The notes under the pieces are model-generated. The model was not told the origin of the DNA and made no database searches. It worked only from the letters and a program-made list of their open reading frames with translations. From Tropicimonas sediminicola (GTDB taxonomy: Bacteria > Pseudomonadota > Alphaproteobacteria > Rhodobacterales > Rhodobacteraceae): a DNA stretch of 38,619 nucleotides. Below, piece after piece: positions 3,077 through 23,336 of this stretch (the stretch's first letter is position 1; each line of letters begins with the position of its first letter). The stretch covers positions 1-38,619 of the forward strand of contig NZ_FZOY01000016.1 of assembly GCF_900188335.1 (NCBI RefSeq), in the 5' to 3' direction. The translations under genes and the position numbers were made by a program.

Positions 3077-3150
3077 TGGAGCGGGCGGCGGGAATCGAAC
3101 CCGCGTCATTAGCTTGGAAGGCTAAGGTCTTACCACTACACAACGCCCGC
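3077..3150 (-). tRNA. tRNA-Gly (anticodon UCC)
   Basis: Read on the minus strand, the acceptor arms GCGGGCG and CGCCCGC pair, followed by discriminator U and an encoded CCA. The anticodon stem TTAGC/GCTAA encloses the 7-base loop CTTCCAA with anticodon UCC. The T arm GCGGG-TTCGATT-CCCGC has the invariant TTCGA. Discriminator U is normal for tRNA-Gly. The 3' part is duplicated at 2940-2983, marking it as an integration target that still keeps an intact gene. Confidence 0.96.
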
Positions 3151-3698: not shown

Positions 3699-3845
3699 CG
3701 TTGGCGGCAAGCTTAGCAAGATGTCGGGTTTTCGGTGACCACCTCGCGACGCCCAAAAGGCACGCCACGGGTCATGTTGAACTGGGCGTCTTTTTGAGCG
3801 AGCTTTTTGCCAACGCGGTCGTGGCAGGCGCAGGACGGACACAAG

Positions 3846-6714: not shown

Positions 6715-7572
6715 CTATGCAGGCTGAGCCTCGAAGGCCAAGGGGCTTTTCCAGTCAGGAGCTGAATGCTTGCGACGCGGATTGTAGAAGCCGTTGATGT
6801 ATTCGAAGATCGCCAGCTCGGCTGCCCGCCGGGTCGGCCATAAACGGCACCAGATCAGCTCGGCCTTGATCGTCTTGAAGAAGGTCTCGACCGCCGCGTT
6901 GTCGTAGCAGTTGCCTTTCCCGCTCATCGAGACCTCAAAGCCATGCTGGCGCAGGATCTTCTGGTAGTCGTGAGAGCCATACTGGCTGCCGCGATCCGTG
7001 TGATGGATACAGCCCCTGGGCGGTTGCCGCAAAGCAATGGCCATCTTCAATGCTCGGATTGCCAGATCAAGCTTCATCCGGTTGCTGACAGCCCAGCCGA
7101 CGACGCGTCGGGAATGCAGATCGAGAATCACAGCGAGATAGAGCCACCCTTCCTGCGTCCAGACATAGCTGATGTCCCCCGCCCATTTCCGGTTCGGGCG
7201 ATCTGCCGAGAAGTCGCGATCCAGCAGGTTTGGCGCGATGTTGAAGCTGTGATCGCTGTCGGTTGTCGCCTTGAACTTCTTGCTCCTCTTCACGGAAATA
7301 CCGTTCTGGCTCATCAGCCTGCCGACACCTCGATGGCCGACATCGAGGCCAATTTCCTTCAACTCCTCGGTCATGCGCAGGCGGCCATAGCTGCCCGGGG
7401 ACAGGGCGAACTGCTCGCGGATGTGAGCCAGGACCACCATATCATTGCGCTGGATGTTGCTGAGTGGACGGCGACGCCAGGCTCGATATCCCCGAGGGCT
7501 GACATCCATGACCTTACACAGCCGGGCCACCGGGAATTCGTTGCGGTGTTCTTCAACGAAGGCCAACCTCAT
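6715..7572 (-). CDS. IS3-family transposase OrfB (DDE integrase domain)
   Basis: Catalytic subunit of the transposase, produced in this family as an OrfAB fusion. It has an N-terminal HTH_21-like region (about 40-95) and an rve integrase core with Asp133 (AGDISYV), Asp193 (HTDRGSQYGS) and Glu229 (DNAAVETFF); the 35-residue spacing between the last two is the DD(35)E signature. The motif SGKGNCYDNAAVE is typical of IS51-like members of the IS3 family. Length from ATG 7572 is 285 aa, full size. The frame is open further upstream to a GTG at 7621-7623. The canonical OrfA tail KATVFFAERSK, found in another frame, ends at a TGA overlapping this ATG. The catalytic core looks intact. Confidence 0.9.
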   Translation of the reverse strand: MRLAFVEEHRNEFPVARLCKVMDVSPRGYRAWRRRPLSNIQRNDMVVLAHIREQFALSPGSYGRLRMTEELKEIGLDVGHRGVGRLMSQNGISVKRSKKFKATTDSDHSFNIAPNLLDRDFSADRPNRKWAGDISYVWTQEGWLYLAVILDLHSRRVVGWAVSNRMKLDLAIRALKMAIALRQPPRGCIHHTDRGSQYGSHDYQKILRQHGFEVSMSGKGNCYDNAAVETFFKTIKAELIWCRLWPTRRAAELAIFEYINGFYNPRRKHSAPDWKSPLAFEAQPA

Positions 7573-7644
7573 TTGCTTCTCTCCGCGAAGAACACCGTTG
7601 CCTTCGTCGGGGAAACGCCCCACTGGGGCCTTTCCTTTTCCTCC

Positions 7645-7887
7645 TCAGTTTAGAACGTCCCTCTCCTCCCGGAGCTGCCGGTTCTCTCTGCGCAGTTTTG
7701 CGACCTCGCGCTCAAGCTCAGATTGCGCTGTCAGCTTCTCGGGGTTCTTGCGTTCCTGTTGGATCCACCGGCTCAGCGTTGAAAAGCCAACACCGAAGTC
7801 AGCGGCAATCTGCTTGCGGAAAAGCCCCCTCGCCAATTCGACCCGAACCGCTTCTGAGCGGAACTCCGGGCTCGGTCGTGATGCCAT
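7645..7887 (-). CDS. IS3-family transposase OrfA (HTH_Tnp_1), shortened
   Basis: An 80-aa protein with the helix-turn-helix that binds the IS ends (about 5-45) and the start of the leucine zipper (LEREVAKLRRENRQLREE). ATG 7885-7887 follows AAGGAGAACAGAC. The frame stops at TGA right after REERDVLN, whereas family members continue with KKATVFFA before stopping. That missing tail is present about 44 bases downstream in a different frame, after a purine-rich stretch and a GGCCCC/GGGGC hairpin. The junction is therefore either an unusual frameshift region or a small insertion that broke the gene. Confidence 0.82.
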   Translation of the reverse strand: MASRPSPEFRSEAVRVELARGLFRKQIAADFGVGFSTLSRWIQQERKNPEKLTAQSELEREVAKLRRENRQLREERDVLN

Positions 7888-7922
7888 GTCTGTTCTCCTT
7901 TGCGACACGATACGTGTGCAAA

Positions 7923-7950
7923 GGAGCGGCACAATTCCGTGACAGGTCCA
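7923..7950 (-). repeat. IS terminal inverted repeat, orfA side
   Basis: Begins GGAGCGGCA and ends CGTGACAGGTCCA, matching the reverse complement of 6677-6704 except for six central bases. It contains part of the orfA upstream region. Confidence 0.88.
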
Positions 7951-8171
7951 GACGGCGTGCGTGGTCGTGGTGCTGCCGTGACGTATCTGTCCCATAGACC
8001 GCCCCTCCATTACAACGAATGGATCGCACCATCAAAACCCGCGATCAAGCACCTAGCCTTGGGTTTCATGAAAACGGCTGCAGCGCGACTAGCCTGTGCC
8101 TTGCCAATCCACCTGAAAGAGTGCTCTGATGTCGTGGTGGAACGTCAAAACAAGAACTTAGAGGCGACGAG

Positions 8172-10892
8172 TTGAAGAAGAAGCTACTCATTAACCAAGT
8201 CAAGGTTGCCAGAATTCAAGACGGTCGCACCATTCCGACCAAAGTCGCCTACCAGGGTCGAAAGTTCAAAATAGGTCGGCACGCGGAAGACAGCGAAGAT
8301 TGTGACCGGCTTTTTGAAAATTTCAAAGTCGAACTCGGTCGGCAAACGCGTGAGCAATTGCGCACGCAAAAGCAAGAGATTTCTAAGGTCCACTCAAGAA
8401 CCGTAGTTGGAATCGCCAAAGATTTCCTCGAGGGAGTTTGCGACGAAGTATTCAAAAACACACAGCGGGATGGTTACTTGGAGCCAAAGAAAGTGCTTGT
8501 AGCGGAACCCATCTCGTTTGAAGAGGAGGGCAAAGTATCGGGTGAGTGGTTATCCAACTACAGGTTTGCCGTACGCTCTGCACTCCAATCAAAGTTTCAA
8601 GAGGTCGACTTTCTTCCTGAACCTTTTGCCGTCTTTCAATATTACCGATATGGATTTCGGCATCCACTGCTCAGCGAGAACGCGAAGCACATCGCCTTGG
8701 TACTGGATTTCGGGGGGGGGACGTTTGATGTTTCCGTGATTGAAACGACAAATACTGGGGACATTAGCGGGAGCGGCGCAAACTCTCGCCCTTTGGCTGC
8801 AAAATCAATCCCTGTTGGCGGCTATTTCGTCAACCAGAAAGTTGCGGAGCGCCTCCTTTTTAGCAACATTGATGATGCTAAAACCAAGAGAAGGGCACGC
8901 GATGTAATCGATAGAGTTGAAAGGTCTGGTGGTTTTCTGGGGGTGGCCAACCCCGCGGCGCAGCTATTTGGAGAACATGAGCAAGCATTCGTTCAGAACT
9001 TTCGAAACCTCTTGCGAGAAGTTGAGGGAGCAAAAGTTCGAATCTGCAATTCAGTCTCAAATTGGGATCTCACCGCAGAGCTTGGGACAGCAGTTTCACA
9101 CTTGGTCAACGTGCCTATTCATCCCTTCGATTCTGAGACCCAACGTCTCGAGTTTCGAATAACGGCGAACGATCTGCGCGAAGTCTTCATCTCCAATGTT
9201 TGGCAGAGTCGGCTAAGGGATGCCGTCAAACGTGCGCTTCAAAGGGCGGAAGAAGAGCTGCGAAGCCGACCAATATCTGTTGTGCTGCTTTCAGGTGGGT
9301 CCACCAACATCGGGTGGACGAAAGAGTTGATCGAAAGAGATCTCGCGGAGCACATTGCAGATGCGGATGTCTTGGAAATCTCTGAAAATTATCAGGAGGT
9401 GGTCGCGAAAGGATTGGCCGTGGAGTGTGCACGCCAGTACTTCACTGAAGGCGATGGCGACTTTGGTGCTGTCACCTACAACCGATTGAATCTAGCACTT
9501 AGAACGGATGAAGGTGAACTTGAACTATGTCCATTTAGTCCAAGGACTCAGGATCTCCCGCGAGCCGAGGATAAGGGCACATTGCTGGCCTCAGCTTCAT
9601 CGCTTCGCGCTTTTCTCGATAAACCAATCTCATGGAAGGCGCGCCTCAAACGTGCGCCAAAACAACAGTTAGAATACCACTATCTGAAGTCCTCATATGA
9701 TCCAAATGACCTGGACAGCGTCCATAACATCGGGGTTAACCGTGTCCGGGTACCTACGCAGGTCTTTGGCCAGTCGATTGATATCGAATTGACGGTTCGA
9801 GAAGATGGAACCGCGACTCCCGCGTTCTTGTTGAATCGCGGAAAAAGAAACGAAACGAGAATAGCTGGCGACGACTTCTATTTGGACATGACATTTGCTG
9901 GACAACCTCAGAGAGCGGAATCCTATATGGGCCTGGATTTTGGCACAGCCACATCAGCCGCGTCCTTGGTATTTCAAAGTGACGTAAAGGCTTACAAAGA
10001 CAGGGAGCGTCAAAAAGCGTGGACTGAACTGAACGATTTGGTTGAAATTCTTCCCTACTGTATAGCCCATCCTCTTGGGAACTACATGGCTCAAACAGAG
10101 GCGCATCTACTGGAGAAGTTCGGGAAAAGAACGTTGGAGGCCATGCTTTCATTTGTCGCGTATATTTGCTACTGTGACGTTGCGAGCCTTGGAAATGGCA
10201 AAACCCCGAAACTGAGCGCAGCATTCAACCGTAGCGCCGGCCCACTCAAGAATCTAATCACGAACTTGTCCCAAGGCGACCTAAGTGAAACACTAGTTGC
10301 GTCAAGGCTGCTTTCCATCTTGCAGAAGGACTTCATGAATGATTTGAGCTTAGCTATACAGGAAGTAAATAACATTAAACACGACCGGGCCGTTAATGTA
10401 GATTTTAACTACCTTCTTGGGGTCCTGGGGAATCACATCAAGCAATCTCTTGGCGGAATTCACTTTGGTAACTTCGAGTCTATGCGAAAGGATGCTTTTG
10501 GTGGTAAATATAGCGGGACTTTCCGCTCAATGCGTGGGTCCAACGCACCCTTCGTGGAGCTGTCGAACTATTCGGGTGCGGTTGACTTCGCTTCAGAGCT
10601 CGTTTTTTTGGTGGACGAGGCAAGTAAAACAGCAATCTCTGTATCCCCATTTTTCCTGTCAGGTGATGTTGCTGTTGGCACCGATACCGGGAAATGCAAC
10701 CTTCTGGTTCTGGACGGCATTGAAGGCAGGGGTTCGGATTTCTCATATATTCCCGTTCAGGAAGGAAAAGGACTAAAAGTTGGGGATTACACCTGTCTGG
10801 ATGATTTGAAGAAATTCTGTGCGGAGTTTTTCATCGGGAACGGTCCTTCAGGTATCTTTAGGAATGTGGAACTGAGCGAAAGGCACACTTAA
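8172..10892 (+). CDS. Hsp70/actin-fold ATPase-like protein with displaced phosphate-1 motif
   Basis: A 906-aa protein from a TTG start. Residues 10-40 align by eye with the strand that follows the phosphate-1 loop of Hsp70 proteins (VARIQDGRTIPTKVAYQGR), but the expected DFGTxxS loop before it is missing. The phosphate-2 loop LDFGGGTFDVSV (178-189) and adenosine loop VVLLSGGSTN (370-379) are clear, and EVVAKGLAVECA (409-420) follows as in Hsp70. Around 430-570 is a probable beta-rich substrate-binding-like part. A second phosphate-1-like loop, MGLDFGTATSAAS, appears at 586-598, followed by about 300 residues of unknown domain. The gene is clearly lower in GC than its neighbours, which suggests separate transfer. 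No in-frame upstream codons supply the missing motif (stop at 8127). Function unknown; chaperone-like sensing or defence is speculation. Confidence 0.8.
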   Translation: MKKKLLINQVKVARIQDGRTIPTKVAYQGRKFKIGRHAEDSEDCDRLFENFKVELGRQTREQLRTQKQEISKVHSRTVVGIAKDFLEGVCDEVFKNTQRDGYLEPKKVLVAEPISFEEEGKVSGEWLSNYRFAVRSALQSKFQEVDFLPEPFAVFQYYRYGFRHPLLSENAKHIALVLDFGGGTFDVSVIETTNTGDISGSGANSRPLAAKSIPVGGYFVNQKVAERLLFSNIDDAKTKRRARDVIDRVERSGGFLGVANPAAQLFGEHEQAFVQNFRNLLREVEGAKVRICNSVSNWDLTAELGTAVSHLVNVPIHPFDSETQRLEFRITANDLREVFISNVWQSRLRDAVKRALQRAEEELRSRPISVVLLSGGSTNIGWTKELIERDLAEHIADADVLEISENYQEVVAKGLAVECARQYFTEGDGDFGAVTYNRLNLALRTDEGELELCPFSPRTQDLPRAEDKGTLLASASSLRAFLDKPISWKARLKRAPKQQLEYHYLKSSYDPNDLDSVHNIGVNRVRVPTQVFGQSIDIELTVREDGTATPAFLLNRGKRNETRIAGDDFYLDMTFAGQPQRAESYMGLDFGTATSAASLVFQSDVKAYKDRERQKAWTELNDLVEILPYCIAHPLGNYMAQTEAHLLEKFGKRTLEAMLSFVAYICYCDVASLGNGKTPKLSAAFNRSAGPLKNLITNLSQGDLSETLVASRLLSILQKDFMNDLSLAIQEVNNIKHDRAVNVDFNYLLGVLGNHIKQSLGGIHFGNFESMRKDAFGGKYSGTFRSMRGSNAPFVELSNYSGAVDFASELVFLVDEASKTAISVSPFFLSGDVAVGTDTGKCNLLVLDGIEGRGSDFSYIPVQEGKGLKVGDYTCLDDLKKFCAEFFIGNGPSGIFRNVELSERHT
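8712..8720 (+). repeat. nine-G homopolymer in the Hsp70-like coding sequence
   Basis: Nine consecutive G encode the three glycines of the phosphate-2 loop (LDFGGGTFD). One-base slippage would frameshift the protein at residue 181-184 and remove most of it. Confidence 0.9.
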
Positions 10893-11260: not shown

Positions 11261-11953
11261 TCATGCGATCGACCAGCCCCCCCCCCCGCGACCCCAATTA
11301 CATCGAACTCGAAGCTTGCAGTCGGCACATCCGGGGTAGCGCGATCTACAAACCTTTGCAGCGTAATCCAGAGCCGCCCAGTTCACGCGGACGGGGTCAT
11401 CGCAGACGACAAGCCAGTGGCAAGCTTCCTGTAACCACGGGTCATGGCGAATGTCTGCCAACCGTCGCGGTCGAAGGTAGCGCTCGAGCAAGCGCGCCAT
11501 GTTTACATCGACGAGCGGCCTAGCTTCACCATGCCCGAACAGAAGAATTGCGTTCGCGAGGTATTGCCCGACCGCGGGCACCTGCGAAAGCTCCCCTTCT
11601 CCTGCCGGAAAAACACCGTCACGCCCGGCGGCGTAGGTCGCGAGCGCCTTAATCGAGGCAGCGCGCCGCCGCCACAGGCCGATAGGTCGGATCACATCCT
11701 CAAGTTGTTCAACGCTTGCCGCGGCCAGTGCCGTCCAAGAGGGAAACTTCCCGAAGAACGAAGGGTAAATCCCGGCCACAGTCTCGGCGCGGGTCCGCTG
11801 CAGGAGAACTTCCACGCAAATTCTCTCGTAGGCCGAAGCGCGATCAGACCGCCAAGGAAAGTCCCGTCCTTCAAGCGCGTACCAGTCTAGGAGATGACGC
11901 CTTAACCGCGTAATCCTGGACTTCTCGCCTCTCGTGAGCCGATCTTGTGACAT
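11261..11953 (-). CDS. HhH-GPD DNA glycosylase of the Mig (T:G mismatch) type
   Basis: A 230-aa endonuclease III/MutY-superfamily protein. The helix-hairpin-helix is LSQVPAVGQYLANAILLF (122-139). At the position of the catalytic Lys of endonuclease III it has Tyr131, as reported for the Methanothermobacter Mig thymine-DNA glycosylase. Asp149 in LVDVN is the catalytic acid. A 4Fe-4S cluster motif C202-x6-C209-x2-C212-x5-C218 matches the family. Mig enzymes repair T:G mismatches that arise when 5-methylcytosine deaminates, and their genes sit beside cytosine-5 methyltransferase genes; here the methyltransferase gene diverges 257 bases away. The MutY C-terminal 8-oxoG domain is absent, which argues against MutY. 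The final codons include an eleven-base poly-C/G tract. The start ATG at 11951-11953 has only a weak ribosome site. Confidence 0.85.
   Translation of the reverse strand: MSQDRLTRGEKSRITRLRRHLLDWYALEGRDFPWRSDRASAYERICVEVLLQRTRAETVAGIYPSFFGKFPSWTALAAASVEQLEDVIRPIGLWRRRAASIKALATYAAGRDGVFPAGEGELSQVPAVGQYLANAILLFGHGEARPLVDVNMARLLERYLRPRRLADIRHDPWLQEACHWLVVCDDPVRVNWAALDYAAKVCRSRYPGCADCKLRVRCNWGRGGGGWSIA
11277..11287 (-). repeat. eleven-base poly-C/G tract at the 3' end of the glycosylase gene
   Basis: Eleven consecutive C on the plus strand read as G on the coding strand, encoding GRGGGGW near the C-terminus. Slippage would alter only the last few residues after the FeS cluster. Confidence 0.9.
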
Positions 11954-12210
11954 ATTAATCCCAGGAAGCGTACTTGGATCTTACCTTCTAATCGGTGACT
12001 CGACAAAGCGCGAACGCACGAGACGTCAAACATGCATCGTTCGAGACGGCGACTGCTACAGGTTGGGGCCACTATCTATCTTTCCACTCTATCTTGGGGA
12101 TAACCATGCGAATTCATTTGCGTTGAGAGGGGCGTCGTGGTCGAATAAATAGCGGATCGCAGTGGTTCGAAATCCACGCAGTCGAGCAGTTGATAAGGCA
12201 GGATAGGATC
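11954..12210. promoter_or_regulatory. divergent intergenic region between glycosylase and methyltransferase
   Basis: The 257 bases must hold the promoters of both genes. The stretch is somewhat AT-richer than its surroundings. I see no convincing -35/-10 pair and no C-box-type dyad for a controller protein, so regulation cannot be named from sequence. Confidence 0.5.
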
Positions 12211-13677
12211 ATGACTTCGTCCCTGGGATGCATTGACCTGTTCGCTGGATGTGGCGGCCTCTCCCTTGGTCTCAAGAGGGCAGGCTTCGAGGTCAAGCTC
12301 GCCGTCGAAAAGTCCGCTATGGCGGCAGAGACCTACTACCACAACTTCATCGAACCGATCAGCGATCAGGCCGAGTGGAGCCGTTATCGCCGCCTTTCAA
12401 CCTTGGATCAGGCGCGGAGCGGCCTCGTCGTCAACGCCCTCGAACAAGTCCTCGCGTCGGAGCTGCTTCTCGAGGAACTGAAAGCGGCCGACATCGATCT
12501 CGTTGCGGGGGGGCCGCCCTGCCAAGGCTTCTCGCTCGCGGGGCGCCGCAACCCGGGTGACGAACGCAACACGCTGCCATGGCAGTTCCTCGACTTCGTA
12601 GAGCGCATCGAGCCAAAGGCCGTCATCATCGAGAACGTGGCGGGAATGCGTCAGGACTTCAGGAAACACGGGGCGCGGTCACCCTTCGACCAGCTGCGGC
12701 TGGCACTTTCGAATACCAGTCCGGGGTACGCGGTACAACCGATGGCGCTAAATGCGATGCATTTCGGGGTTCCGCAGCATAGGCCGCGGGTATTCCTCGT
12801 CGGCCTGCGCCGAGACCTTGCAGACGCGGCCGGGGTGCAAGTCACGGCCGATACCTGGCTCTCCGACAGGGACACGCCCTACGATCTCCAGATCCCTAGC
12901 CGTCCGGCGTTGGCGCCGGCACGGACGCATTTCGAGACCGGTCCACGGCAGCATCTCGCCGTTCGGGATGCGATTTCCGACCTCGGCAACGACGGCTACC
13001 TCGATGTGCAGGCCTTGTCCGAATTCGCCAGCGAAATGCGGTCCATCGAGCCCCTGCTCAAGCGCGTGGATGGCCCTCACGGAAACGCGGCAATCTTGCG
13101 AAACCACGTGCTCCGCTCGCACTCCGATCTAGTGAGAAAGCGCTTCGAGCTCTACCAGTTCCTGCGCGACGCTAAGATCGGCACGCAGCTTCTTTCCGTT
13201 CCCAAGAGAAGCGGGCTAACTGACGCGGAACGACGGGAATTGATTCACGACGCGGTCGATGGCTTAGAGTTTCCTTTGGTCTTGGAAAATGGCTCGACCT
13301 TGGCCGGCAACAAGGGAGCGTTTGTTCGCCTCTTGAACCGCCTCGCGACGAAGAAGCACAGCCAGCGCGCACTTTCACTCGGAAGCCCGTCACCAACCGT
13401 CGTGAGCCTGCCGGACGACTACGTGCACCCGACAGAGCCGCGTACTCTTACCGTGAGGGAGATGGCTAGGTTTCAGTCCTTCCCAGACGCCTTCGAGTTT
13501 AGGGCAAAGGAGACAACCGGCGGCACGAAGCGCCGCACGGAGGTGCCGCAGTACACGCAGGTCGGGAACGCGGTGCCGCCGAAACTCGCAGAAGCAATCG
13601 GAAGGCGCTTGGCGGAAGCCATCGCTGCCGCTTCCCTCGAAGGGAAAGGCGAGGCCCGCGACACCGCCGTCGCCTGA
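12211..13677 (+). CDS. DNA (cytosine-5) methyltransferase
   Basis: Transfers a methyl group from S-adenosylmethionine to C5 of cytosine in a specific DNA sequence. The 488-aa protein has all key motifs: I DLFAGCGGLSLGL (9-21, SAM binding), IV GGPPCQGFS (100-108) with catalytic Cys104, VI ENVAG (141-145), VIII QHRPR (189-193), IX LTVREMARFQSFP and X QVGNAVPPKLAEAI near the end. The long segment between VIII and IX (about 200-420) is the target-recognition region, so specificity cannot be read by eye. ATG 12211 was chosen because AGGATAGGATC precedes it and motif I starts at residue 9; an in-frame start at 12190 is possible. It diverges from a Mig-like glycosylase gene and faces a three-gene operon that could act as its restriction partner. 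No small restriction endonuclease gene or Vsr gene is adjacent. Confidence 0.95.
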   Translation: MTSSLGCIDLFAGCGGLSLGLKRAGFEVKLAVEKSAMAAETYYHNFIEPISDQAEWSRYRRLSTLDQARSGLVVNALEQVLASELLLEELKAADIDLVAGGPPCQGFSLAGRRNPGDERNTLPWQFLDFVERIEPKAVIIENVAGMRQDFRKHGARSPFDQLRLALSNTSPGYAVQPMALNAMHFGVPQHRPRVFLVGLRRDLADAAGVQVTADTWLSDRDTPYDLQIPSRPALAPARTHFETGPRQHLAVRDAISDLGNDGYLDVQALSEFASEMRSIEPLLKRVDGPHGNAAILRNHVLRSHSDLVRKRFELYQFLRDAKIGTQLLSVPKRSGLTDAERRELIHDAVDGLEFPLVLENGSTLAGNKGAFVRLLNRLATKKHSQRALSLGSPSPTVVSLPDDYVHPTEPRTLTVREMARFQSFPDAFEFRAKETTGGTKRRTEVPQYTQVGNAVPPKLAEAIGRRLAEAIAAASLEGKGEARDTAVA

Positions 13678-14273
13678 CAGTCTGCCTTCGCAGGCAAGAG
13701 CGCCTATCGCGCAGCGCATTACCGTAGCTCTTTTCCCTCGGGGCCGGTCAAGGACTATCTTCGCACTAGCCGCGAGCGTCCTTCGTTCAGCAGGGCACAA
13801 AGATCCCCTAGAAATTGCCTCGCTGAACTTTTGGTCTCGCGCTTGGGGAAGAAATGTCCAGATCTGGGCGATCCGTGCAAGTGGGGGGCTTTGTAGGTAG
13901 ATACACGAGGCGCTAAAGCTCTAGAACAAGCTCGTTTCGGCGCTTGTGAACGGCTGCGTGGAGCGTTTGGAAGTCGTCCACGTCTCACTAATCGCATACG
14001 GTTCGGGCTCCCTCAGGGCTTCTCCCGAAATCCGAGAGATAAGCCCCCCGACACGCCCAAAGGCGCACCGGATCCGCCGCGCACTCGCCCTCCCCTCCCC
14101 CCACAAATAAGTGAATCGCGTGGCCTCTCAAGACCGCGTTGGCCGCACCGTTCCTGATGGTCGGATTTCGTGCGCCCTTCAGCGTTAGCCCTCGAAACGT
14201 CGGTTTGCCCGTCACCGATCGAGGTAAGGTCTACTTGTATTTGTCTCTAAGGACATGGTGTCGGACCTTGGTC
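13678..14273. other. intergenic region between two convergent units
   Basis: It lies between the methyltransferase and the end of the three-gene operon. A small hairpin TGCCT-TCGC-AGGCA (13683-13696) follows the methyltransferase stop but has no U-tract. Open frames on the minus strand here are arginine/proline-rich and match no known pattern. I see no gene. Confidence 0.5.
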
Positions 14274-17200
14274 CTAACCAAGGCTCCTTTCTAGAAGGTA
14301 GGCTCTCCCCTTGTCAGTGATTACCCGGCCCTGCCCAGTTTGCCTAATCAGGTCGAGCTTTGAGAGATACGGAAACACTTCTTCCTTTAGGCGGTCCCTA
14401 TCAACAGATGACAACTGGCCAAGCAATTGCGACTCGCTCAGCGGCCTTTCTTGACGCTGCAACAGCCTAAGAACTTCGAGGTCGTCGGGCCCAAGACCGC
14501 TCTCGTCGATGCCACGCGCATCCCTAACGGCCTCAAGGTGCACTTCTAGCGTTGCCTCGGGATCTGATATTCGCGCTACGACTATCTCCCTTTGCAGCTC
14601 GTCGAGAAGTTGAATCGCTACCCGGGGTACGTTCCGTGCAACGCCGGCCAGGCGGCGAAGGAAGTCGATAGGAATTACTGTGGACTCCAGCTCGGGGCGA
14701 GAAGAAGCTGCCCGTCGCAGCATTTCGGCGACCTCGCCTGAACTATACGGCCGCAACTGTATCTCCGTGCATCGCGTCTTGAACGCGTTGTCGACCTCGG
14801 ATGCGCGGGTGGTTGCAAGCAAGAACGTCGCCCTAGGCACCTTTGCGACCTCGTCCTTAAGGGTGACTTGGCGATCATTTGGCTCAAGCAAGGTAAGTAA
14901 GGCCTCCTGTACCGCGGGTCTCACGAGATGAACTTCATCGATCAACACGATAAATGGTGGATACACTCGCACTGGCTGACCGGCGTCGATCCCGAGCTCG
15001 CGGATCGCGCTGCCTGCTTCCTCCAGCTTCCTTCGAATGAATTGGAAAAGGCTGTCCCGGCTGTCGACGGCCTTACCGTCGAGCATTACGAACGGGAGGC
15101 CCAATGCCGTTGCAATGCGCCGCGAAAGCTCTGTTTTCCCGGTCGACGGTGGTCCAGTCAACAAGTAAGAAATCGCCAGTGAAACCTGGCCATCGTCTCT
15201 GGATGATCCACCCAGAAAGGCGTATAGTACGTCGCGCTTCAAGGTCCTGACCGCTTGTTCATTTCCAACGAAGCCCTCGAACGCGCCATCCACACGTGAC
15301 TTGAGAGCCAGCTCTTCCGGAGTGAGTTTTACGGCAACCCGCTGATGCGCTCCTCCGTCTCCCGCGGGAACGTTTGGAGCCGCCTGTCCATCATTTCCGT
15401 TCGAGATGCCTTCCGCCTCGCGATCGGGTTGAAGTTCGGGTTGCCTTGATCCAGCCTTTTGCTCGGTTCCCATCTCTCCAGTCTCGGGTCCGTGTCTGTC
15501 AATCTTGTCATTGCGGCTACCGGGTCGGACATCTACGGTTGCTACTGTCTTCGGGGCGCCAGCGTAGATCTCTGACAGATCACCTCCTGACAGCATCGTC
15601 TTAATGGCCACTTGGACCTCGCCTCCTGAATCCGCGGACGCAACGGCCGCCGGGTTTGCCAGTAGCTGATTCACCTCATTGGAGTTCAATCTTCCAGGCA
15701 GCAGGCTGAACACGCGCCCACCGGGCCCGAAAGCTCCAGATTGGAACCAAAGCAGTGTGCCAGGATGACAAGCGACGGTAACATGCCCCTCCGCGATGGC
15801 AGTTAAGAGCCTTGCTTCCTTCTCGGTATCGCGTGACGTTTCGATCGGGCGCATTGCCAAGCCAGCCTCAAACAGTGTTGCCAGGGCCGAGTTAACCAAC
15901 ACCAGTGAAGAGCCTACGTCGACGAAGTTCTCCACTGCCCTTCGAAGTACGGCACCGGTGCTAGCCAGTTGCTCCAGCGGCTCCTCCAGAGCCTTGGAAC
16001 CGAACTCCGGGAACTTGGCCGCCATGGCCGTCCGCATCTTCACTTCAACTGGGTGGAACGTCACCGAGGCTGCGCCATCCGTGTCCTCCTTCACCGACAG
16101 CAAGAGCAAGTCGGCACGTTTCTGATCGTCCGTTGCCTTGGCACCCTCTGCCAGCGCGTCGACCAAGGGGTAGACCGCGTCCATTGGAAGGATACAGCGC
16201 ACCTCGTTTTCACTGACATCGTCTTCCCAAGCTGACAGCGCGTTGAATGCCAGCGAGAAGCCCACCGCGCCGACGCTCTGGGCATGCCCCATGGTAAGCA
16301 GGGACGACAAGCCAACGCCCCGCATCCCGAGCTGGGCGATCAGGTTCCACCCCTCTTCTTCTCCTGCCGGGATCCCGCAACCTTTGAAGACGGACGTTAT
16401 GCCCTCCACAAGCGCGCGCGGCGGCTTCGCAAGCACGGTGTATGGATGAGAGGACGAAATGGTTCCCCCTAGTGACTGTCCTTGCCGACGCTTCAAAAAC
16501 GCCGGTCGCCATTCCCAGAGCGCGATGTTCTGGGTCGATTGCCGCAATTGCGCCGACAGGACCGAGGGATCCAGGTGGCGGTTTCCTGTCACGGTCCATC
16601 GTGCGCGGTCAGACATCAACGAATGGCCGAGGCTCAGCGCTGCAACCAGCCTTCCAAGCTTTCCTTCCCTTGCCCGGTTCTCGAACGTCGAGAGCGCCCC
16701 CGAGAACTTGCCTAGCCCTGAGAAAGCCGCGGGTTGGACACCAACGCATACGCTCGAGCGTTTATTGTCCAAATCGTCGCGCTGCCACACGCGAAAGCGG
16801 TTAACGGGCAACCGAGGACCAGTTGTGCCCGCGCTCTCGTCTTGGGCTGCGGGCACACAGCCCAGCCGTACGATAGAGTTCTCGATGAACTGGATATCGA
16901 CCCTTCCCTGGTCGGAGTCCTCGCGTTCCATCGTCCACTCGAAAGGCGCCCTTGTTCCTCTTGACCGGTCCTGCGAAGCCTCGGAAACTTCGCTCAATAC
17001 ACGGGAAGGCGATGGCGGGTTTCCTTCCCGGTTAAGCGAGTCGAGGACCCTGATCCCGCCAGGCAGCATGTCCCGGTCTTCAGCCAGCATCGAGGTCGCC
17101 GCGGCAATGATCGCATCGTCGGTTTCGGGGTAGCGTTCGCTTCTGGTCGGCGAGGCCAGGCCAATCCTCAGCTTGGGCGAGGTCGGATAGACACGCAGGT

Positions 17201-19778
17201 AGTCTTTCAGCGCAACGGTGACGCCGCCCTTATCTAGGCCAGACGGGGTTCCGAAGGGCAGTTGTCTCCCAATGATGGATACCGACCTGCCCCTGAGATC
17301 CGTGATCATGGCCTGAGAAGCGACGAGGGACCATCCTGAAAACAGTTCGCTGGGTCCAGCCGACAGGCCAACGCTGAACCAAGCGTCGTCGACATCCTGC
17401 AGCGAAGGCCCCATCAAGGGGATGTTCTCGCCGTCTACGAAGCGAAGGAACGATGTCGCAGCCCGTCTGTAGACACCGCTCTCGAACAGCTCGGTGCAAG
17501 CATTTTGGACGCTCCACGCCCAAGCCAGTCGGACTGGATGCAGGGGGGACAGCAGTACTCCTTGGACCTCGCCCTGCGCGGTATTGTAGAGGATCGCGGA
17601 CAATGGATAGTGGGCACAAGCGTTGGCTGGTCCGGGACCCGCCGTGTCCATCATGTCGATGAAGGCTCCGAGGTAGGCCTCTAGCTTCCCGGCATCCAGT
17701 TCCCTAAAGTCAAGCGTACTAGGCCACGCTGGCTCCCGCGTGGCACCCGGCAACGAATGGAGTTCGAGTGCCTCGAACTTAAGCCAAAATTCGTCGAGAG
17801 CAGCCAGTCTGGGATAATGAAATGCAATGGGCGCGGAGATATCTGTGAATGCACCGATCCCTTCGTGCCATTCCAAGACGTCGCTCTGCGCGCCCGGCAA
17901 GGCAAGGATGCAAGATCCTAGCGTCTCTCGGACCTTGCACGGAACGTCCGCCGATAGGCAGTTTTGCGAAAGCCAGTCCTCTAGTGGTCCACGCGGATCT
18001 CCCCTGAGAGCCTCTAGCATCCCCGCAGAGGGGGTCACCTGCGGCTGCCCCGTCAACGCTACGAAAACCGGGTTTACATGGCCTTTCTCGATCTCGGGCG
18101 CCGAGACCTCGACCGTATACCTCCCGAGTGCAAGCGTCGCGTCCTCTGGCAAGTCCGGAACCTCGAATACACGAACGAACTCGGGGAGATACTCACTGTC
18201 GATTTCTCTCGGGCCGCCTCCACCTGACCAGGTGGGCGCGTCTTCCAAGCCAACTACGTAGAGCTGCGTTACTTGCCCAGAATTGCGAAGTTTAAGGGGC
18301 ACCGAGCTTTCTTGGCCGTCACCTCCGAAGACCACGTTTCCGCCTTCAACCAGGAACTCGGAGGTCGCAGGGTGGGAAATCCTTCGCGTTGACGTGCCCT
18401 CCGACCGCTCGGCCGCGATAACCGTCGGACGGCTTGGATGTGGCACCAAAAGTTTCAATTTTAGGCCTGCCCTGAAACTCGATTCCGCGGTGATCGTCTT
18501 GGGCTCTACGCTGAGCGTAACCGGAGTTTCGCGCCACTTCCCGCGGGTGCCAAGTTTTCGAGACATTCGGAAGCTGACCACGAGCGAGCCTTCCTCGATG
18601 CTCCAGCCCATGATTTCCACCAGCGCCGCGCTTGCGGGCGTCGCTTCTATATAGAGCGGAAGCGAACCGGGTGCATGCTCGAACTGGACACCTAGCCTAA
18701 GCTTGAAATTACCAATCGAGAATCGACCGCTATCCAGCGGGCCCGCCGGCGCAGGCGGTAGTACGTAATCGAGACCCTGAAGGCCGAGATCAACCAGGCG
18801 TGCCTCGCTTCCGGTCCCGTTAATTGCGAAGAGCTCGTGACTAGGTTGCTCGTCATTGGGACGGGTGAAGAAGCCCTTCTCTGAGCACGAAAGCCAGCTG
18901 TCGATCCAAGCGTCATTCTCGCCCCCATGGAACAAGGCGGCGAGGATCGGGTGGCCCAAGTTCGTGCGCGAGGCAGTATAGCCATCCCAATCAAGCTGCA
19001 TTATTGGGTGGTCGCCTTCGCCTGTGCCATCGATCGCGTCTATCGAAACGATTGACTTCTCAATGGCCTCTAAGCTCGCCCAACCCTCCAAAAGTCGCTT
19101 GGAAAACTTGGTGGCGTCGTTCGTCGGGTCGTAGGCACTTCCACTCGACGGTACGGGCAGCCCAGCACTCGCGAAAACAACATTGACACCTAGGGGTACG
19201 TCTCTGGCTTCGGCGAACTTCATGACTTTCGGCAAGTTCTCGCAGGCCGACTCTAGGTGTTGCCAATACGCGCTGGACCAACTCTGCTCGTCGTTCCCAA
19301 TGTTTTCGTATGCATCTGCAAGGAAGGAGAATATGTACTCCAATGCATCTGCGAGTTGGTTCCTCGCATCTTCTGCCCGCTCCTCGACGCCCAGGACGAG
19401 CCGAGCCACGTTGAGCGCCAGTTCGGAGGAGCGAACAATGCTGTTGGGTCTTCCTTCGAGCCCCCCAGGCAGTCCGAACGCCAGCTGGTCACGAAAACCC
19501 TCGTTGGTCTTGAGCTCGTCCGCCTGACCATCGGTGGCCACAAGGACAACATCGGATGTTCCGTCGCCTCCCTCTGGGGTTCGGTATCCTGCGGCTTCAC
19601 CGGTGGCTTTCTCTCCTTCGCCGGGACCAACGATGAATGCTGTTCCCCCTTTGGAATGGATTGCATCCACCACGATCTGCTTGAAGCCAGGGGACAACGA
19701 TCTCGGAAGGATCAATCGGCTTAGACCGTGCTTCCCAGTACATGCATGACCGAGGGCTCTTGCCAGTATGCTCACCAT
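14274..19778 (-). CDS. 1834-aa protein with PD-(D/E)xK-like motif and C-terminal RuvB-like AAA+ ATPase
   Basis: Third gene of the operon. Residues 1-1200 match nothing I recognise. A nuclease-like pattern follows: Asp1223 in ADLLLLSV and Glu1245-Val-Lys1247 in HPVEVKM, spaced as in PD-(D/E)xK nucleases. After a low-complexity polar linker (about 1410-1480) comes an AAA+ module: Walker A GPPSTGKT (1542-1549), Walker B FIVLIDEVH (1609-1617), sensor 1 LLATTR (1653-1658), an arginine near 1667 as candidate finger, sensor 2 RNVPR (1715-1719), and a RuvB-type winged helix (1764-1830). The AAA+ and winged-helix order matches RuvB Holliday-junction motors, so it is likely a DNA translocase coupled to a nuclease. 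ATG 19776-19778 follows TAGGAACG and lies 5 bases after the preceding stop. Size and operon place recall DptH, but DptH has a different ATPase type as I know it, so homology is unproven. Confidence 0.85.
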   Translation of the reverse strand: MVSILARALGHACTGKHGLSRLILPRSLSPGFKQIVVDAIHSKGGTAFIVGPGEGEKATGEAAGYRTPEGGDGTSDVVLVATDGQADELKTNEGFRDQLAFGLPGGLEGRPNSIVRSSELALNVARLVLGVEERAEDARNQLADALEYIFSFLADAYENIGNDEQSWSSAYWQHLESACENLPKVMKFAEARDVPLGVNVVFASAGLPVPSSGSAYDPTNDATKFSKRLLEGWASLEAIEKSIVSIDAIDGTGEGDHPIMQLDWDGYTASRTNLGHPILAALFHGGENDAWIDSWLSCSEKGFFTRPNDEQPSHELFAINGTGSEARLVDLGLQGLDYVLPPAPAGPLDSGRFSIGNFKLRLGVQFEHAPGSLPLYIEATPASAALVEIMGWSIEEGSLVVSFRMSRKLGTRGKWRETPVTLSVEPKTITAESSFRAGLKLKLLVPHPSRPTVIAAERSEGTSTRRISHPATSEFLVEGGNVVFGGDGQESSVPLKLRNSGQVTQLYVVGLEDAPTWSGGGGPREIDSEYLPEFVRVFEVPDLPEDATLALGRYTVEVSAPEIEKGHVNPVFVALTGQPQVTPSAGMLEALRGDPRGPLEDWLSQNCLSADVPCKVRETLGSCILALPGAQSDVLEWHEGIGAFTDISAPIAFHYPRLAALDEFWLKFEALELHSLPGATREPAWPSTLDFRELDAGKLEAYLGAFIDMMDTAGPGPANACAHYPLSAILYNTAQGEVQGVLLSPLHPVRLAWAWSVQNACTELFESGVYRRAATSFLRFVDGENIPLMGPSLQDVDDAWFSVGLSAGPSELFSGWSLVASQAMITDLRGRSVSIIGRQLPFGTPSGLDKGGVTVALKDYLRVYPTSPKLRIGLASPTRSERYPETDDAIIAAATSMLAEDRDMLPGGIRVLDSLNREGNPPSPSRVLSEVSEASQDRSRGTRAPFEWTMEREDSDQGRVDIQFIENSIVRLGCVPAAQDESAGTTGPRLPVNRFRVWQRDDLDNKRSSVCVGVQPAAFSGLGKFSGALSTFENRAREGKLGRLVAALSLGHSLMSDRARWTVTGNRHLDPSVLSAQLRQSTQNIALWEWRPAFLKRRQGQSLGGTISSSHPYTVLAKPPRALVEGITSVFKGCGIPAGEEEGWNLIAQLGMRGVGLSSLLTMGHAQSVGAVGFSLAFNALSAWEDDVSENEVRCILPMDAVYPLVDALAEGAKATDDQKRADLLLLSVKEDTDGAASVTFHPVEVKMRTAMAAKFPEFGSKALEEPLEQLASTGAVLRRAVENFVDVGSSLVLVNSALATLFEAGLAMRPIETSRDTEKEARLLTAIAEGHVTVACHPGTLLWFQSGAFGPGGRVFSLLPGRLNSNEVNQLLANPAAVASADSGGEVQVAIKTMLSGGDLSEIYAGAPKTVATVDVRPGSRNDKIDRHGPETGEMGTEQKAGSRQPELQPDREAEGISNGNDGQAAPNVPAGDGGAHQRVAVKLTPEELALKSRVDGAFEGFVGNEQAVRTLKRDVLYAFLGGSSRDDGQVSLAISYLLTGPPSTGKTELSRRIATALGLPFVMLDGKAVDSRDSLFQFIRRKLEEAGSAIRELGIDAGQPVRVYPPFIVLIDEVHLVRPAVQEALLTLLEPNDRQVTLKDEVAKVPRATFLLATTRASEVDNAFKTRCTEIQLRPYSSGEVAEMLRRAASSRPELESTVIPIDFLRRLAGVARNVPRVAIQLLDELQREIVVARISDPEATLEVHLEAVRDARGIDESGLGPDDLEVLRLLQRQERPLSESQLLGQLSSVDRDRLKEEVFPYLSKLDLIRQTGQGRVITDKGRAYLLERSLG

Positions 19779-19783
19779 CGTTC

Positions 19784-21286
19784 CTAGAACCCCGCCTGTA
19801 TCTCGAGAGCGTCGTCTGCATCGTGGCTGCTCCGCGCCATGCCATACTTCTCGAGGAGTGAAATGATCGTCGGCGTAGAAGCCTGTATGCCTAGTTCCGC
19901 GAGCGAATTTCTCAAGTCGCCCAGCCTGGCTAGGCCACCAGGGCCATCTGCGCAGAGGCTAGCCACCGTAACCAACCATTCTTGGCCAGGTTCAACACGA
20001 GTGAACTTCCCCGACCGCCGCAGCAGGGCATAGAGGTCTGTGCCCCCGTCGGTGCCACGGTCAAGGAGCGAGTAACGGATCGTTTCCCGCGTGTTCCTCG
20101 CCCCGCCAACTACTCCAGAAGAAAGGGCCTCGGTCACCGCCTCCGCGATATCGGTCTCGCCTGCAACCTGCGAGCGGGCATTGGCCAACCAACCTGCAAG
20201 ACCATTGCGGGCTCTATCGTGTTCTTCGATCGGGTCAATCTTGATCGCCTCGGACATCCCTCCTTCAGCCTTGGTCAACTGCTCGATGAGATCTAGGCAA
20301 GCGGTTCCGGCTCCCGCGAGTCGGTTTATCACTGGTCCCACGTCAGAGGTAGAAAGCGGCAGCTGATCGTTCCAAGGCAACAAGGCAAGTCCATCGCCGA
20401 GAATGTCTTCCACTGCTTTAGCAGAGTCGTCGCTTGCAAGGAGGGCAGCAGCTAGGCGCCGTGCCACGTGCATTTCGAATAGGAAGCCGGTTGCGATTGC
20501 CGTGCGTGCTACGCAGGAAGCCCAATCGGTCCACCGACGCCTCGGCATCGCCTCGATCCAACCACCGTGGCACAGCCTGTACCAGCTCCTGGCGAACCAA
20601 CGATACGGGGATGGCCTCGACGTCCCAAGCCAAGCAGGACGTCGCTCAACCGGTCCATTAGCATCCAACGTTCCCGATGCTAGTTTCTTGGCCAAGTCTA
20701 TGGAGGACGACGGGACGATGGTCTCGAACGCCAATGCCCCCCATCGCGGAAGGCCTGAGGTCCCAGCGTTCACGAGTGCTGCCTGCCAACCCGTTGCCAC
20801 GGTGCCCTCGCCACCTCCCAACGCATAGAGCTGCTCCAAAATCCGTGCGATGTTCGCGGGGTTTTTCTTCCCGGTCACGCCACGACGATCTTGCAATAGA
20901 GCGGTCTCGATCGTGAGCGGGGTTGCAGAGGTTCTTTTGGCTCCTCTGGACGCTGGGGCCGCGAGCTCGTCGAGTAGAACGGTTGCAATAAGTTCTGCGG
21001 CGTTGTCGTCCCGGATGCGCAGCTCACGGTCCAATGTCTCTTTCATGGCACTGAAACGTGCGTCACTCCTGGTGGGGCGGGTCAATTCAAGGCCTGCTGC
21101 AACGCTTTCCCTTAGCGCGGCCTGCGACGTCGCGGCATATGCAAGCCCTCTTGGAGTGGTTTGCTTCCCGGACGAACTGGGCGACGTGCTGTCGGTCAGA
21201 GACCACGCCAGCTCCGACATGAACAGTTCCCGTGAAGGGATGTACTCCGGCCTGTTGAGCCCCAGTAGAGTAAAGTCTCTTGGCAT
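19784..21286 (-). CDS. conserved-looking 500-aa protein of unknown function (middle gene of operon)
   Basis: I do not recognise this protein. It starts MPRDFTLLGLNRPEYIPSREL and is soluble and alpha-helical in character, with no signal peptide, membrane segment, cysteine cluster or P-loop. ATG 21284-21286 is preceded by GGAG seven bases upstream, 16 bases after the stop of the first operon gene; an earlier in-frame start would overlap that gene. It ends 5 bases before the 1834-aa protein's start, so all three genes are almost certainly cotranscribed. Its place between an ATPase and a giant ATPase/nuclease parallels DptG between DptF and DptH, which suggests a structural or adaptor subunit. 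That is inference from gene order only. Confidence 0.75.
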   Translation of the reverse strand: MPRDFTLLGLNRPEYIPSRELFMSELAWSLTDSTSPSSSGKQTTPRGLAYAATSQAALRESVAAGLELTRPTRSDARFSAMKETLDRELRIRDDNAAELIATVLLDELAAPASRGAKRTSATPLTIETALLQDRRGVTGKKNPANIARILEQLYALGGGEGTVATGWQAALVNAGTSGLPRWGALAFETIVPSSSIDLAKKLASGTLDANGPVERRPAWLGTSRPSPYRWFARSWYRLCHGGWIEAMPRRRWTDWASCVARTAIATGFLFEMHVARRLAAALLASDDSAKAVEDILGDGLALLPWNDQLPLSTSDVGPVINRLAGAGTACLDLIEQLTKAEGGMSEAIKIDPIEEHDRARNGLAGWLANARSQVAGETDIAEAVTEALSSGVVGGARNTRETIRYSLLDRGTDGGTDLYALLRRSGKFTRVEPGQEWLVTVASLCADGPGGLARLGDLRNSLAELGIQASTPTIISLLEKYGMARSSHDADDALEIQAGF

Positions 21287-21302
21287 TGATCTACTCCGAT
21301 GG

Positions 21303-23336
21303 CTACCGGGTAACACTACCCATGCCGACCTTTGAGAAACGGAAGCGGTGTTGGCCTTCTTGCGCGGCCAAACCCTTGGCAACGAGGCTCGCCCTTAGAC
21401 GCTCGATCCGGGGCTCGATGAGTTCGAGCGAGTCCGTGAAACCTTGACCACGCACCCGAGACTGGGCTTCCCTAAGGAGGTGAAAGTCCAGTGGCGTACT
21501 CGCTTGTCGGTTCTTCCCGTCCCTGATGTCACCCGGATCGATCATGATCTCGATACGGTCTCCGAAGGCCTCAGCAGATACGCGCATGCGGTTTCTAGGG
21601 ATCTCGATCTCGGCGACGCTCTGGTCCGTCGAGTTCCCAGCGACACGCGGTTTCAAGAACGTGAAATACGCCTCGGAGTTCGTTCTCTCGACCGGCGCAA
21701 CAATGTCCAAAATTGCGTCTTCAAGTTCGCGCCGGAATGGTCTCCCCACCCGGGCATCAATCCACGCGTCTTGCCAAGCATGGACGACACTACAGTGCGC
21801 CGGCCATCCCCTTGCGAACGCAACGAGCCGGTACATGTATCGTCCGTACCAGTCCAGGAGGGAATTCCGAACCTTCAGGCTGGAACGGTCATTCTCGGGA
21901 TTGACCGCTTCTGCGATCTTGGCTTCGATCCGACCATCTAGCTCCGTGAAGTACTGGCCAACGGCGACCTCTTCTAGGGCAAGGCTCGTGATCGGCAATT
22001 CCTTGTCCTCGATGCGTGAAAGCCGATCGGCGAGTTCTAGGTATTTCTTGCCGTCCGAAGGGCCAAATTGGCGCAGGGGATCCGCGAGCGAAACTGACCT
22101 GAGGGCCTCGTTGGACGTGCTAGGCCAAGAATGCCGGAATCTCGTAGGCGAACTTGCTACGCCGGGGTTCCCTGCATCGAAAAGAAGCATGTGCGTTCTC
22201 ATGTTGCCCAGGGCAACCAGCGCTTCGAGGGAACCGTCTCCGTCGCTGTCGGCGGCCCCTATCCAAGTGTCGATTTCCGCGGACATACCGTCCAGAACCC
22301 CGGGAGTAGAGGGGCCGACGAGGGAATGGGTGGCGAGGGCCCACAACTCCCTGTAGGTAAACTGAGAACCGGAGATCACCTCCGCTCCCCTCATCATGGA
22401 ACACCATCCACGGGCTGGAAACTCGGCCTGCAGCGAAAACGCGTTAGAAAGAACGGGATCCAGAGCTCGAACCTCCGCATCGGCAGCAAAGGCGTGCGCA
22501 ACCTTCCTAAGGCACTCTTCGAAAGCGCAGGACGTCGTAGCGCGCTCGCTCGAAAGAAGGGGGATCAACCTGCTACCGCGAACCTCGAGTGGCTCAAGCG
22601 GTTCATTCATCCGCTCATCACCTTCAGGCCACGCCTCGAGAAGCGACGCTTGGTCCATGTAGACCGCGTGGATGCTTGCAATGTGGCTACCCGCTTTGCG
22701 CACCTTGGCAAAGCCGTAGTTTCCGGAGCCTTTGCGCGCATCCCCGGCTAACTCGAGCTGGAATTCGTTTCCAGAAAGCTCGGTGGGTTCTCCCGTCAAC
22801 AGCCAGTTCGCAAGACACTTTGCTAGGAGGAGCTCGTCCATATCTTTGTCTGTGACTTCCGTGCTAGCTTCCGAGATCAAAACGCCGCGGTTCACACAAG
22901 CCAGGAGGTGATCCTGTCGTGAGATTGCTTCGGCAAGGTCGCGCAAGAGCGGTGCCGTGCACCTGTCCTCCGCTGGAATGGTCGCATCGTTGATGACCTT
23001 AAGGTCGCCGCCGGTCTTCAGTTGAAAGCAGTACTTTCTCTTGGCGAACTTAGATCTTTCGCCCTGCAGTGTGCCATCAATCTGCGCGACGGTGTCCGCA
23101 GCGAGCTTCGATTTACCGTTCCCCGCGCCACCAACAAGCATGACGAGGCAACGGGGATCATTTGGCCCGCAGAACGCGTTGCATACTTTGACGAGCGCCA
23201 TGCACGCTTCGAGCGCACACGGTGCGGATGGACCATCTGGCCACATTTCTTGGGTGTTTTTTGAGATTGGTGACACGGCGGCACCCATGCCACCGAAGCC
23301 GCGCTCAAGGATCCACGGCGGATAACCTATTCCCAA
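21303..23336 (-). CDS. P-loop ATPase, first gene of three-gene candidate defence operon
   Basis: A 677-aa protein from a TTG start (23334-23336) with GGGAG nine bases upstream; the next in-frame ATG is at 23288. The Walker A is VGGAGNGKS (68-76). KVINDATIP (113-121) and LLACVNRGVL (144-153) follow, a set of motifs seen in ATPases of large restriction and defence operons that I associate with DptF-like proteins. The long C-terminal part has no recognisable domain. It leads an operon with gaps of 16 and 5 bases to the next two genes, so the three proteins probably form one complex. It may energise or license the nuclease/translocase subunit. DptF homology is a suggestion from layout and motif style, not an established match. 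Confidence 0.75.
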   Translation of the reverse strand: MGIGYPPWILERGFGGMGAAVSPISKNTQEMWPDGPSAPCALEACMALVKVCNAFCGPNDPRCLVMLVGGAGNGKSKLAADTVAQIDGTLQGERSKFAKRKYCFQLKTGGDLKVINDATIPAEDRCTAPLLRDLAEAISRQDHLLACVNRGVLISEASTEVTDKDMDELLLAKCLANWLLTGEPTELSGNEFQLELAGDARKGSGNYGFAKVRKAGSHIASIHAVYMDQASLLEAWPEGDERMNEPLEPLEVRGSRLIPLLSSERATTSCAFEECLRKVAHAFAADAEVRALDPVLSNAFSLQAEFPARGWCSMMRGAEVISGSQFTYRELWALATHSLVGPSTPGVLDGMSAEIDTWIGAADSDGDGSLEALVALGNMRTHMLLFDAGNPGVASSPTRFRHSWPSTSNEALRSVSLADPLRQFGPSDGKKYLELADRLSRIEDKELPITSLALEEVAVGQYFTELDGRIEAKIAEAVNPENDRSSLKVRNSLLDWYGRYMYRLVAFARGWPAHCSVVHAWQDAWIDARVGRPFRRELEDAILDIVAPVERTNSEAYFTFLKPRVAGNSTDQSVAEIEIPRNRMRVSAEAFGDRIEIMIDPGDIRDGKNRQASTPLDFHLLREAQSRVRGQGFTDSLELIEPRIERLRASLVAKGLAAQEGQHRFRFSKVGMGSVTR

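Follow-up and report, generated by a model that had tools for sequence, protein, structure and literature searches.

A candidate restriction-modification system in Tropicimonas sediminicola pairing a cytosine-5 methyltransferase with an FGH-class effector, a RuvB-type motor and a putative mismatch-repair glycosylase

What kind of system is formed by five neighbouring genes of Tropicimonas sediminicola that encode a cytosine-5 DNA methyltransferase, an HhH-GPD glycosylase and three further proteins, the last of them 1834 aa long? The window analysed here is an entire 38.6-kb contig (NZ_FZOY01000016.1) from a genome of 5.17 Mb in 32 contigs. An initial annotation had proposed an undescribed modification-restriction system at 11261-23336, and all five of its open reading frames (ORFs) were found at these positions. 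We consider it probable, at roughly 0.78, that the genes form one restriction-modification system, in which a 5-methylcytosine (m5C) methyltransferase acts together with an effector of the FGH class (SspFGH/DndFGH-like) and a built-in repair enzyme for T:G mismatches. The five genes, and the domains of H, are as follows.

11261-11953, minus strand: HhH-GPD glycosylase ORF, 230 aa
12190-13677, plus strand: cytosine-5 methyltransferase ORF, with an in-frame ATG at 12211
14274-19778, minus strand: H ORF, 1834 aa
H domains, in residues: LLSPLHPVRLAW motif, 742-753; PD-(D/E)XK nuclease, ~1168-1280 (VEVK, E1245); RuvB-type AAA+ domain with winged helix, ~1500-1830
19784-21382, minus strand: G ORF, 532 aa as listed, with a likely start at ATG 21286
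21303-23336, minus strand: F ORF, 677 aa, P-loop ATPase

F, G and H, transcribed in that order, are three adjacent co-directional genes whose products (677, 532 and 1834 aa) are comparable with the sizes of the FGH class (about 600, 500 and 1700-1850 aa). They are tightly packed: the likely ATG of G lies 16 bp beyond the F stop, as counted on the sequence, and the G stop is 5 bp from the H start. The run converges on the methyltransferase gene, with 596 bp between the two stops, and the methyltransferase and glycosylase ORFs start 236 bp apart in divergent orientation. GC content at third codon positions is 0.64-0.75 in the five genes and 0.83 in phaC of the same window, which is consistent with acquisition.

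FGH loci for comparison were collected by SspF models, plasmid searches and an alignment scan. Homology of H to the FGH class was examined with a profile of the first 1400 aa of 18 H proteins, from which the window was excluded. Window H matched it at E = 2.4e-10 (E for 5000 proteins), and the best of 300 composition shuffles reached 7.4. Two of the 18 members (L057 and L058) came from a scan headed by window H, which favours this score; a profile of four m5C-linked H proteins, without these two, gave 3.3e-6 (best of 500 shuffles, 21). An earlier profile of eight other H proteins had matched in the nuclease block (hhalign E = 0.0056). The match to the 18-protein profile consists of two co-linear blocks, an LLxPxHPxRxxW segment (window residues 735-786) and the PD-(D/E)XK domain (1168-1280). 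The nuclease-like motif noted in the initial annotation aligns with the nuclease block of SspH-type proteins, LPMDA, KRADLLLL and PVEVKMR of window H falling on the same elements there. Direct BLASTP searches with window H, in databases of a few dozen proteins, returned L090 (1e-7), L057 (2e-5) and L058 (3e-5). At E ≤ 0.1 neither H nor G matched an Ssp or Dnd model of PADLOC.

F contains a P-loop (LVGGAGNGKS) and a CVNRGVL motif. It matched the PADLOC SspF model (3.7e-5), a general F profile (0.005) and a profile of m5C-linked F proteins (9.2e-7; best of 500 shuffles, 5.7), and found no match in the PDB. For G, profile and hhalign searches gave no significant sequence match to the winged-helix proteins SspG or DndG. 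Its C-terminal segment has a winged-helix-like pattern, seen by eye only, and a single-sequence structure model had a mean predicted local distance difference test (pLDDT) score of 38. The proposed comparison with the DptF/G/H, BREX and DISARM families therefore had a mixed outcome: H and F fall in the FGH class, whereas G has no match and the BREX and DISARM families gave none. Because H and F are homologous to the class that includes Dpt and Ssp, the operon is not unrelated to these systems and ranks, by this homology, as a divergent FGH-class member. Since that class occurs with several marks, the system is better described as a variant within it than as a category of its own.

The C-terminal part of H departs from this class. 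SspFGH and DndFGH proper have a HerA/FtsK motor at this position. Residues ~1500-1830 of window H instead matched Pfam AAA (9.6e-13) and RuvB_C (1.8e-7), NCBIfam RuvB TIGR00635 (1.6e-21) and the PDB structure of RuvB 3pfi (3.3e-15), in agreement with the RuvB-like AAA+ domain noted initially. Reading by eye off the RuvB alignment, we found the following elements preserved in the motor: Walker A (GPPSTGKT), Walker B (LIDEVH), the sensor-1 block ATTRA, an arginine at the finger region, the sensor-2 PR and a winged-helix start (GIDE.GL...D..L). A single-sequence structure model of the C-terminal 695 aa had a mean pLDDT of 35. Motors could be named in four other H proteins: FtsK in L015 (1.1e-35), HerA in L075 (1.7e-11), a TrwB/HerA-like and DndH-like motor in L083 (DndH models, 7.3e-69) and DUF87/HerA in L090 (7.9e-6); those of L057, L058, L061 and L062 had weak Pfam matches or none. 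By tblastn at 1e-4, the window motor found no match in 42 other loci. The RuvB motor is the oddest part of the system.

The methyltransferase adjoining F-G-H matched Pfam DNA_methylase at 2.3e-56 over residues 14-474 and is 34.6% and 32% identical to the FGH-linked methyltransferases of L083 and L084. Four loci (L083, L084, L091 and L098), hosted by Sinorhizobium (S. fredii GR64), Rhizobium (R. leguminosarum 31B), Shinella oryzae and one contig of a viral collection, run methyltransferase-F-G-H-Vsr on one strand; their F, G and H are annotated, where at all, only as hypothetical or ATP-binding. A fifth arrangement, located by an SspF model search, comes from a genome that belongs to another genus of the same family (G647; L015/L016) and has F-G-H, a convergent m5C methyltransferase and a divergent Vsr gene. 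It mirrors the layout of the window, with Vsr in the place of the HhH-GPD gene; in BLAST comparisons its F and H stand nearer to proteins of the Ssp and MADS types. The expected co-occurrence of the genes was thus found in these four loci and in G647 for methyltransferase, repair gene and FGH together, although the repair gene there is Vsr and not HhH-GPD.

To count modification partners, we opened the surroundings of 29 full or partial FGH loci, window included, and sorted them by modification enzyme. Eight have phosphorothioation (Ssp) genes, nine an N6 methylase with a specificity subunit, two other DNA methylases and eight an m5C methyltransferase; two short contigs have no visible partner. 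A frame-independent tblastn recheck left the counts unchanged. L005 (F at the contig edge), H11 and H74 (unopened) and L025 (in which tblastn found neither F nor H) were left out. The m5C group is enriched in this count, because L083, L084, L091 and L090 also appear in the search with the window methyltransferase. A less biased count started from F and H of the rhizobial locus L083, or from F and H profiles. Apart from L083 itself and another, unopened record of the same strain, these queries returned L084, L091, L090, L098 and L099, and all five have an adjacent m5C methyltransferase (rechecked by tblastn). The concern that homologues might occur mostly without such a methyltransferase therefore applies to the wider FGH class, in which other modification enzymes prevail, but not to these relatives. 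In Pseudoalteromonas, H (L090 10553-15926) is annotated as two ORFs of 164 and 1623 aa. In Rhizobium anhuiense, two DNA methyltransferase genes come after an FGH module (L061 4467-18632); by BLAST or tblastn they are not of the m5C type and are, by this comparison, yet another FGH modification partner. Searching 295 genomes from the family of the window with SspF model PDLC02795 gave two matches, both of which lie with Ssp genes and not with m5C. Two further scans were set aside: model PDLC02797, uninformative because it matched none of 240 genomes and no control, and SspH model PDLC02806, which matched 366 of 385, with the listed matches in its FtsK end.

Nineteen plasmid records match the window methyltransferase, and FGH is present in four of the seven opened (H14, H15, H16, H18, H25, H31 and H32, the last via L090). 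The L015 methyltransferase matches eight records, of which five were opened (H63, H64, H65, H68 and H69); none has F or H and four have Vsr. In a tree of 16 methyltransferases, the window enzyme groups with the rhizobial and Pseudoalteromonas FGH-linked methyltransferases and a Euzebya methyltransferase (support 92/93, below the tool's mark for a firm branch). The L015 enzyme lies in another clade, and with the firm branches taken as given the FGH label has to change twice. Together with the nearness of L015 F and H to proteins of the Ssp and MADS types, this makes it quite plausible that m5C and FGH came together on more than one occasion.

A putative repair gene stands next to FGH in the window, assigned at the level of the HhH-GPD family. 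Its product matched Pfam HhH-GPD (2.4e-16), a PADLOC model of type II nicking enzymes (1.9e-22) and, in the PDB, MutY (2.2e-26) and 1kea, a possible G-T mismatch enzyme (1.4e-21). Full-length MutY chains have about 350 aa. The window protein is short like Mig, yet its best PDB scores are to MutY; its Asp, Tyr and four Fe-S cysteines align with plasmid Mig, and these residues do not decide between T:G and A:G substrates. From its sequence we predict a MutY/Mig-like T:G mismatch glycosylase that would guard against m5C deamination. Thirty-four records match this protein, and four of the five opened (H33, H34, H37, H38 and H57) have an m5C methyltransferase in the stretch. Vsr nicks at the T:G mismatches that arise from m5C deamination. 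No Vsr gene was found in the genome of the window at E ≤ 0.001, and the same search found Vsr in G647, where the single match lies at the FGH locus, and in G353.

Could the mark instead be phosphorothioate, made by genes elsewhere in this genome? At E ≤ 0.001 neither a DndC nor an SspB/DUF4007 gene was found in it. The DUF4007/SspB model likewise had no match in G647 and matched the other three of five genomes, all of which have Ssp genes near FGH. Phosphorothioation elsewhere in the genome was rejected on these grounds, and with it the idea of DptFGH proteins served by distant dnd genes. Druantia (II), DISARM and BREX were also rejected, since H, G and F match no PADLOC core model of these systems at E ≤ 0.1; the methyltransferase alone matches DruM/DrmMII, at scores below those of type II methyltransferase models. 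The initial proposal of m5C in place of phosphorothioate or N6-methyladenine (m6A) gains support from the m5C methyltransferases found beside FGH, but not in the form of a system unrelated to Dpt and Ssp.

Comparison with described systems places the locus more closely. SspFGH, which goes with phosphorothioation by SspABCD, is reported to damage unmarked DNA, an activity for which all three genes are required (PMC8092258). The window resembles it in the order ATPase, protein of unknown family and ~1.8-kaa effector, in the homology of F and of H over the HPxR block and nuclease, and in a predicted attack on unmarked DNA. It differs in its predicted m5C mark, in having no SspB match, in a RuvB-type rather than FtsK motor and in a putative T:G repair gene, and window F and H had no BLASTP match to the Ssp-type loci opened first. 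With DndFGH/DptFGH it shares the three-part logic, and the L083 motor matches DndH models; unlike those systems, the window has a motor that is not HerA/FtsK, an H with no DndH match at E ≤ 0.1 and no DndC match. MADS-like loci, named here from the PADLOC mad models, comprise an N6 methyltransferase, a specificity subunit, F (often kinase-fused), G and H. The LLxPxHPxRxxW and nuclease blocks of H are common to both, with a direct BLASTP match of window H to L058 H, whereas the window has a predicted m5C mark instead of m6A, another motor and neither specificity subunit nor kinase. The methyltransferase-F-G-H-Vsr loci share with the window the methyltransferase family, the F motifs LVGGxGNGK and CVNRGVL, the H motif LLSPLHPxRxAW and a T:G repair partner (predicted in the window); they differ in Vsr, in the HerA/DndH-like motor of L083 and in their single-strand order. 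Mig of the Methanothermobacter plasmid pFV1 is likewise a small HhH-GPD enzyme near an m5C methyltransferase, with the Asp, Tyr and Fe-S residues in common, but it is 28% identical, and the nuclease of its system is a simple one of NgoPII type. MORC/paraMORC restriction-modification clusters are also described as multi-gene m5C systems with a mismatch-repair partner (Vsr), built on a GHKL ATPase and a superfamily 2 helicase and, in the portion of the source available, without FGH (PMC2292703).

In published work, cytosine methylases that replace phosphorothioation are reported for DndDE-type modification cores, and DndH motors are described as HerA/FtsK captured from several clades, with RuvB nowhere in the main text (PMC10853773, 2024). 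The accessible text of a 2026 BREX survey gives no RuvB occurrence (PMC12839542). Among the literature matches listed, none reports m5C combined with FGH, an FGH system that includes a repair gene, or an H whose motor is of the RuvB type.

In the mechanism that we propose, the methyltransferase would mark self DNA with 5-methylcytosine. F, as ATPase sensor, G, as DNA-binding middle subunit, and H, which would contribute target reading, the PD-(D/E)XK nuclease and the motor, would form one ATP-driven complex that scans DNA, probably of phages or plasmids, and damages DNA without the mark. The HhH-GPD enzyme would remove T from the T:G mismatches left by m5C deamination. A RuvB-type AAA+ ring would stand in for the usual HerA/FtsK motor. 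RuvB-type and HerA/FtsK motors are both hexameric double-strand translocases, so the pumping role could be kept, and most simply one hexameric double-stranded DNA pump has been swapped for another. More speculatively, and in our view with low probability, H may be loaded, by means of a branch-migration ring, onto the replication forks or Holliday-like junctions that invading replicons form; unmethylated DNA would then be restricted while replicating or recombining. If true, this junction-directed loading would be a targeting mode for which we know of no description so far in FGH, Dnd, Ssp or BREX systems.

Several observations weigh against this single system. The methyltransferase and F-G-H are convergent, and so do not form a single operon. 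G is not recognisable by sequence and was placed by a position and size that match SspG/DndG. A RuvB-type H was seen in the window only. Pattern scans of 85k species genomes returned no close relative, and the alignment-based scan of the same genomes returned two distant FGH loci. Apart from itself, window F had no match in 289 and 225 class genomes, and window H none in 146 relatives' genomes at E ≤ 1e-15; neither had relatives in plasmids or viral contigs, and a phage collection searched with L015 F gave no match. The Euzebya methyltransferase, nearest to that of the window, has no FGH within 9 kb, and one gain of the m5C-FGH pairing with later losses could also account for the tree. In the FGH class as a whole, m5C is not the usual mark. 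L090 lacks an adjacent repair gene, and L099 ends after F. Relatives of the L015 methyltransferase pair with Vsr but lack FGH in four of five opened plasmids, and the fifth lacks both; a methyltransferase-Vsr pair alone does not predict FGH, and by these gene contents such pairs also serve other effectors.

These points bear on the possibility that two unrelated neighbours have come to lie side by side, namely a methyltransferase and Mig-like glycosylase left from an ordinary type II system after loss of the nuclease, and an FGH module that counters invaders on its own. The 596-bp convergent gap would suit such neighbours, as would the methyltransferase-Vsr pairs that occur without FGH. A 55% identical HhH-GPD protein on an Alisedimentitalea plasmid (L068 11376-14651) stands in a row with an m5C methyltransferase and an MvaI/BcnI-type nuclease, by gene content a conventional type II system that includes Mig-like repair, and the plasmid Mig gene lies near an m5C methyltransferase and an NgoPII-type nuclease. 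DndFGH is also reported to be commonly decoupled from modification genes and has been argued to be a counter-invader module (PMC10853773). In contrast, all five opened relatives of rhizobial F/H have the adjacent m5C methyltransferase, L015 repeats the window layout, and a mark is expected beside FGH because unrestrained SspFGH is reported as toxic without its mark (PMC8092258). On balance, we regard chance neighbours as improbable. Somewhat less improbable, though still unlikely, is an abortive or inhibitory module, in which FGH would sense invading DNA and block replication or kill the cell, with the nuclease secondary and m5C only shielding the chromosome. It overlaps with the restriction-modification system proposed here and draws on the same gene-level evidence, and SspFGH is described as suppressing phage replication with no visible degradation products; the same source, however, reports DNA damage positive by terminal deoxynucleotidyl transferase dUTP nick-end labelling (PMC8092258), and the nuclease residues are kept in H. 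That the locus is an inactive remnant on a decaying island seems very improbable. An IS3-type transposase and a probable relic attachment site lie nearby and no close relatives were found, but none of the five frames is interrupted over its 0.7-5.5 kb, and the P-loop, RuvB sensor, PD-(D/E)XK, methyltransferase and Fe-S motifs are present.

Elsewhere in the window, the 3' half of a tRNA-Gly gene (3077-3150, minus strand) is directly repeated 137 bp away, with 44 identical bases (2940-2983 and 3077-3120); this is likely a relic attachment site at one island edge. Two overlapping GTPase ORFs at 3807-6474 (MMR_HSR1, Dynamin_N) match LeoA/LeoBC defence models and are perhaps a second defence system within the island. 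IS3-type transposase genes (6715-8010) lie directly upstream of an Hsp70-like 906-aa ORF (8172-10892) of low GC content (about 0.48-0.50); the N-terminal part normally present seems to be missing from its start, as though the IS3-type insertion had truncated it. A 613-aa open frame (36778-38619) runs off the contig end; it has no Pfam match at 0.001 and reads like an ATPase, with GSRGSGKSG in its translation.

The finding of one module with phosphorothioate, m6A-type and m5C writers points to a mark-agnostic FGH effector. The mutagenic cost of an m5C mark would be met by a dedicated repair enzyme, either Vsr or an HhH-GPD glycosylase, and with RuvB another ATPase family joins the HerA/FtsK motors reported for this protein. 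Because m5C can be mapped and switched by one gene, the way in which FGH distinguishes self from foreign DNA, a question raised by partly marked phosphorothioate sites, would become testable in such a system.

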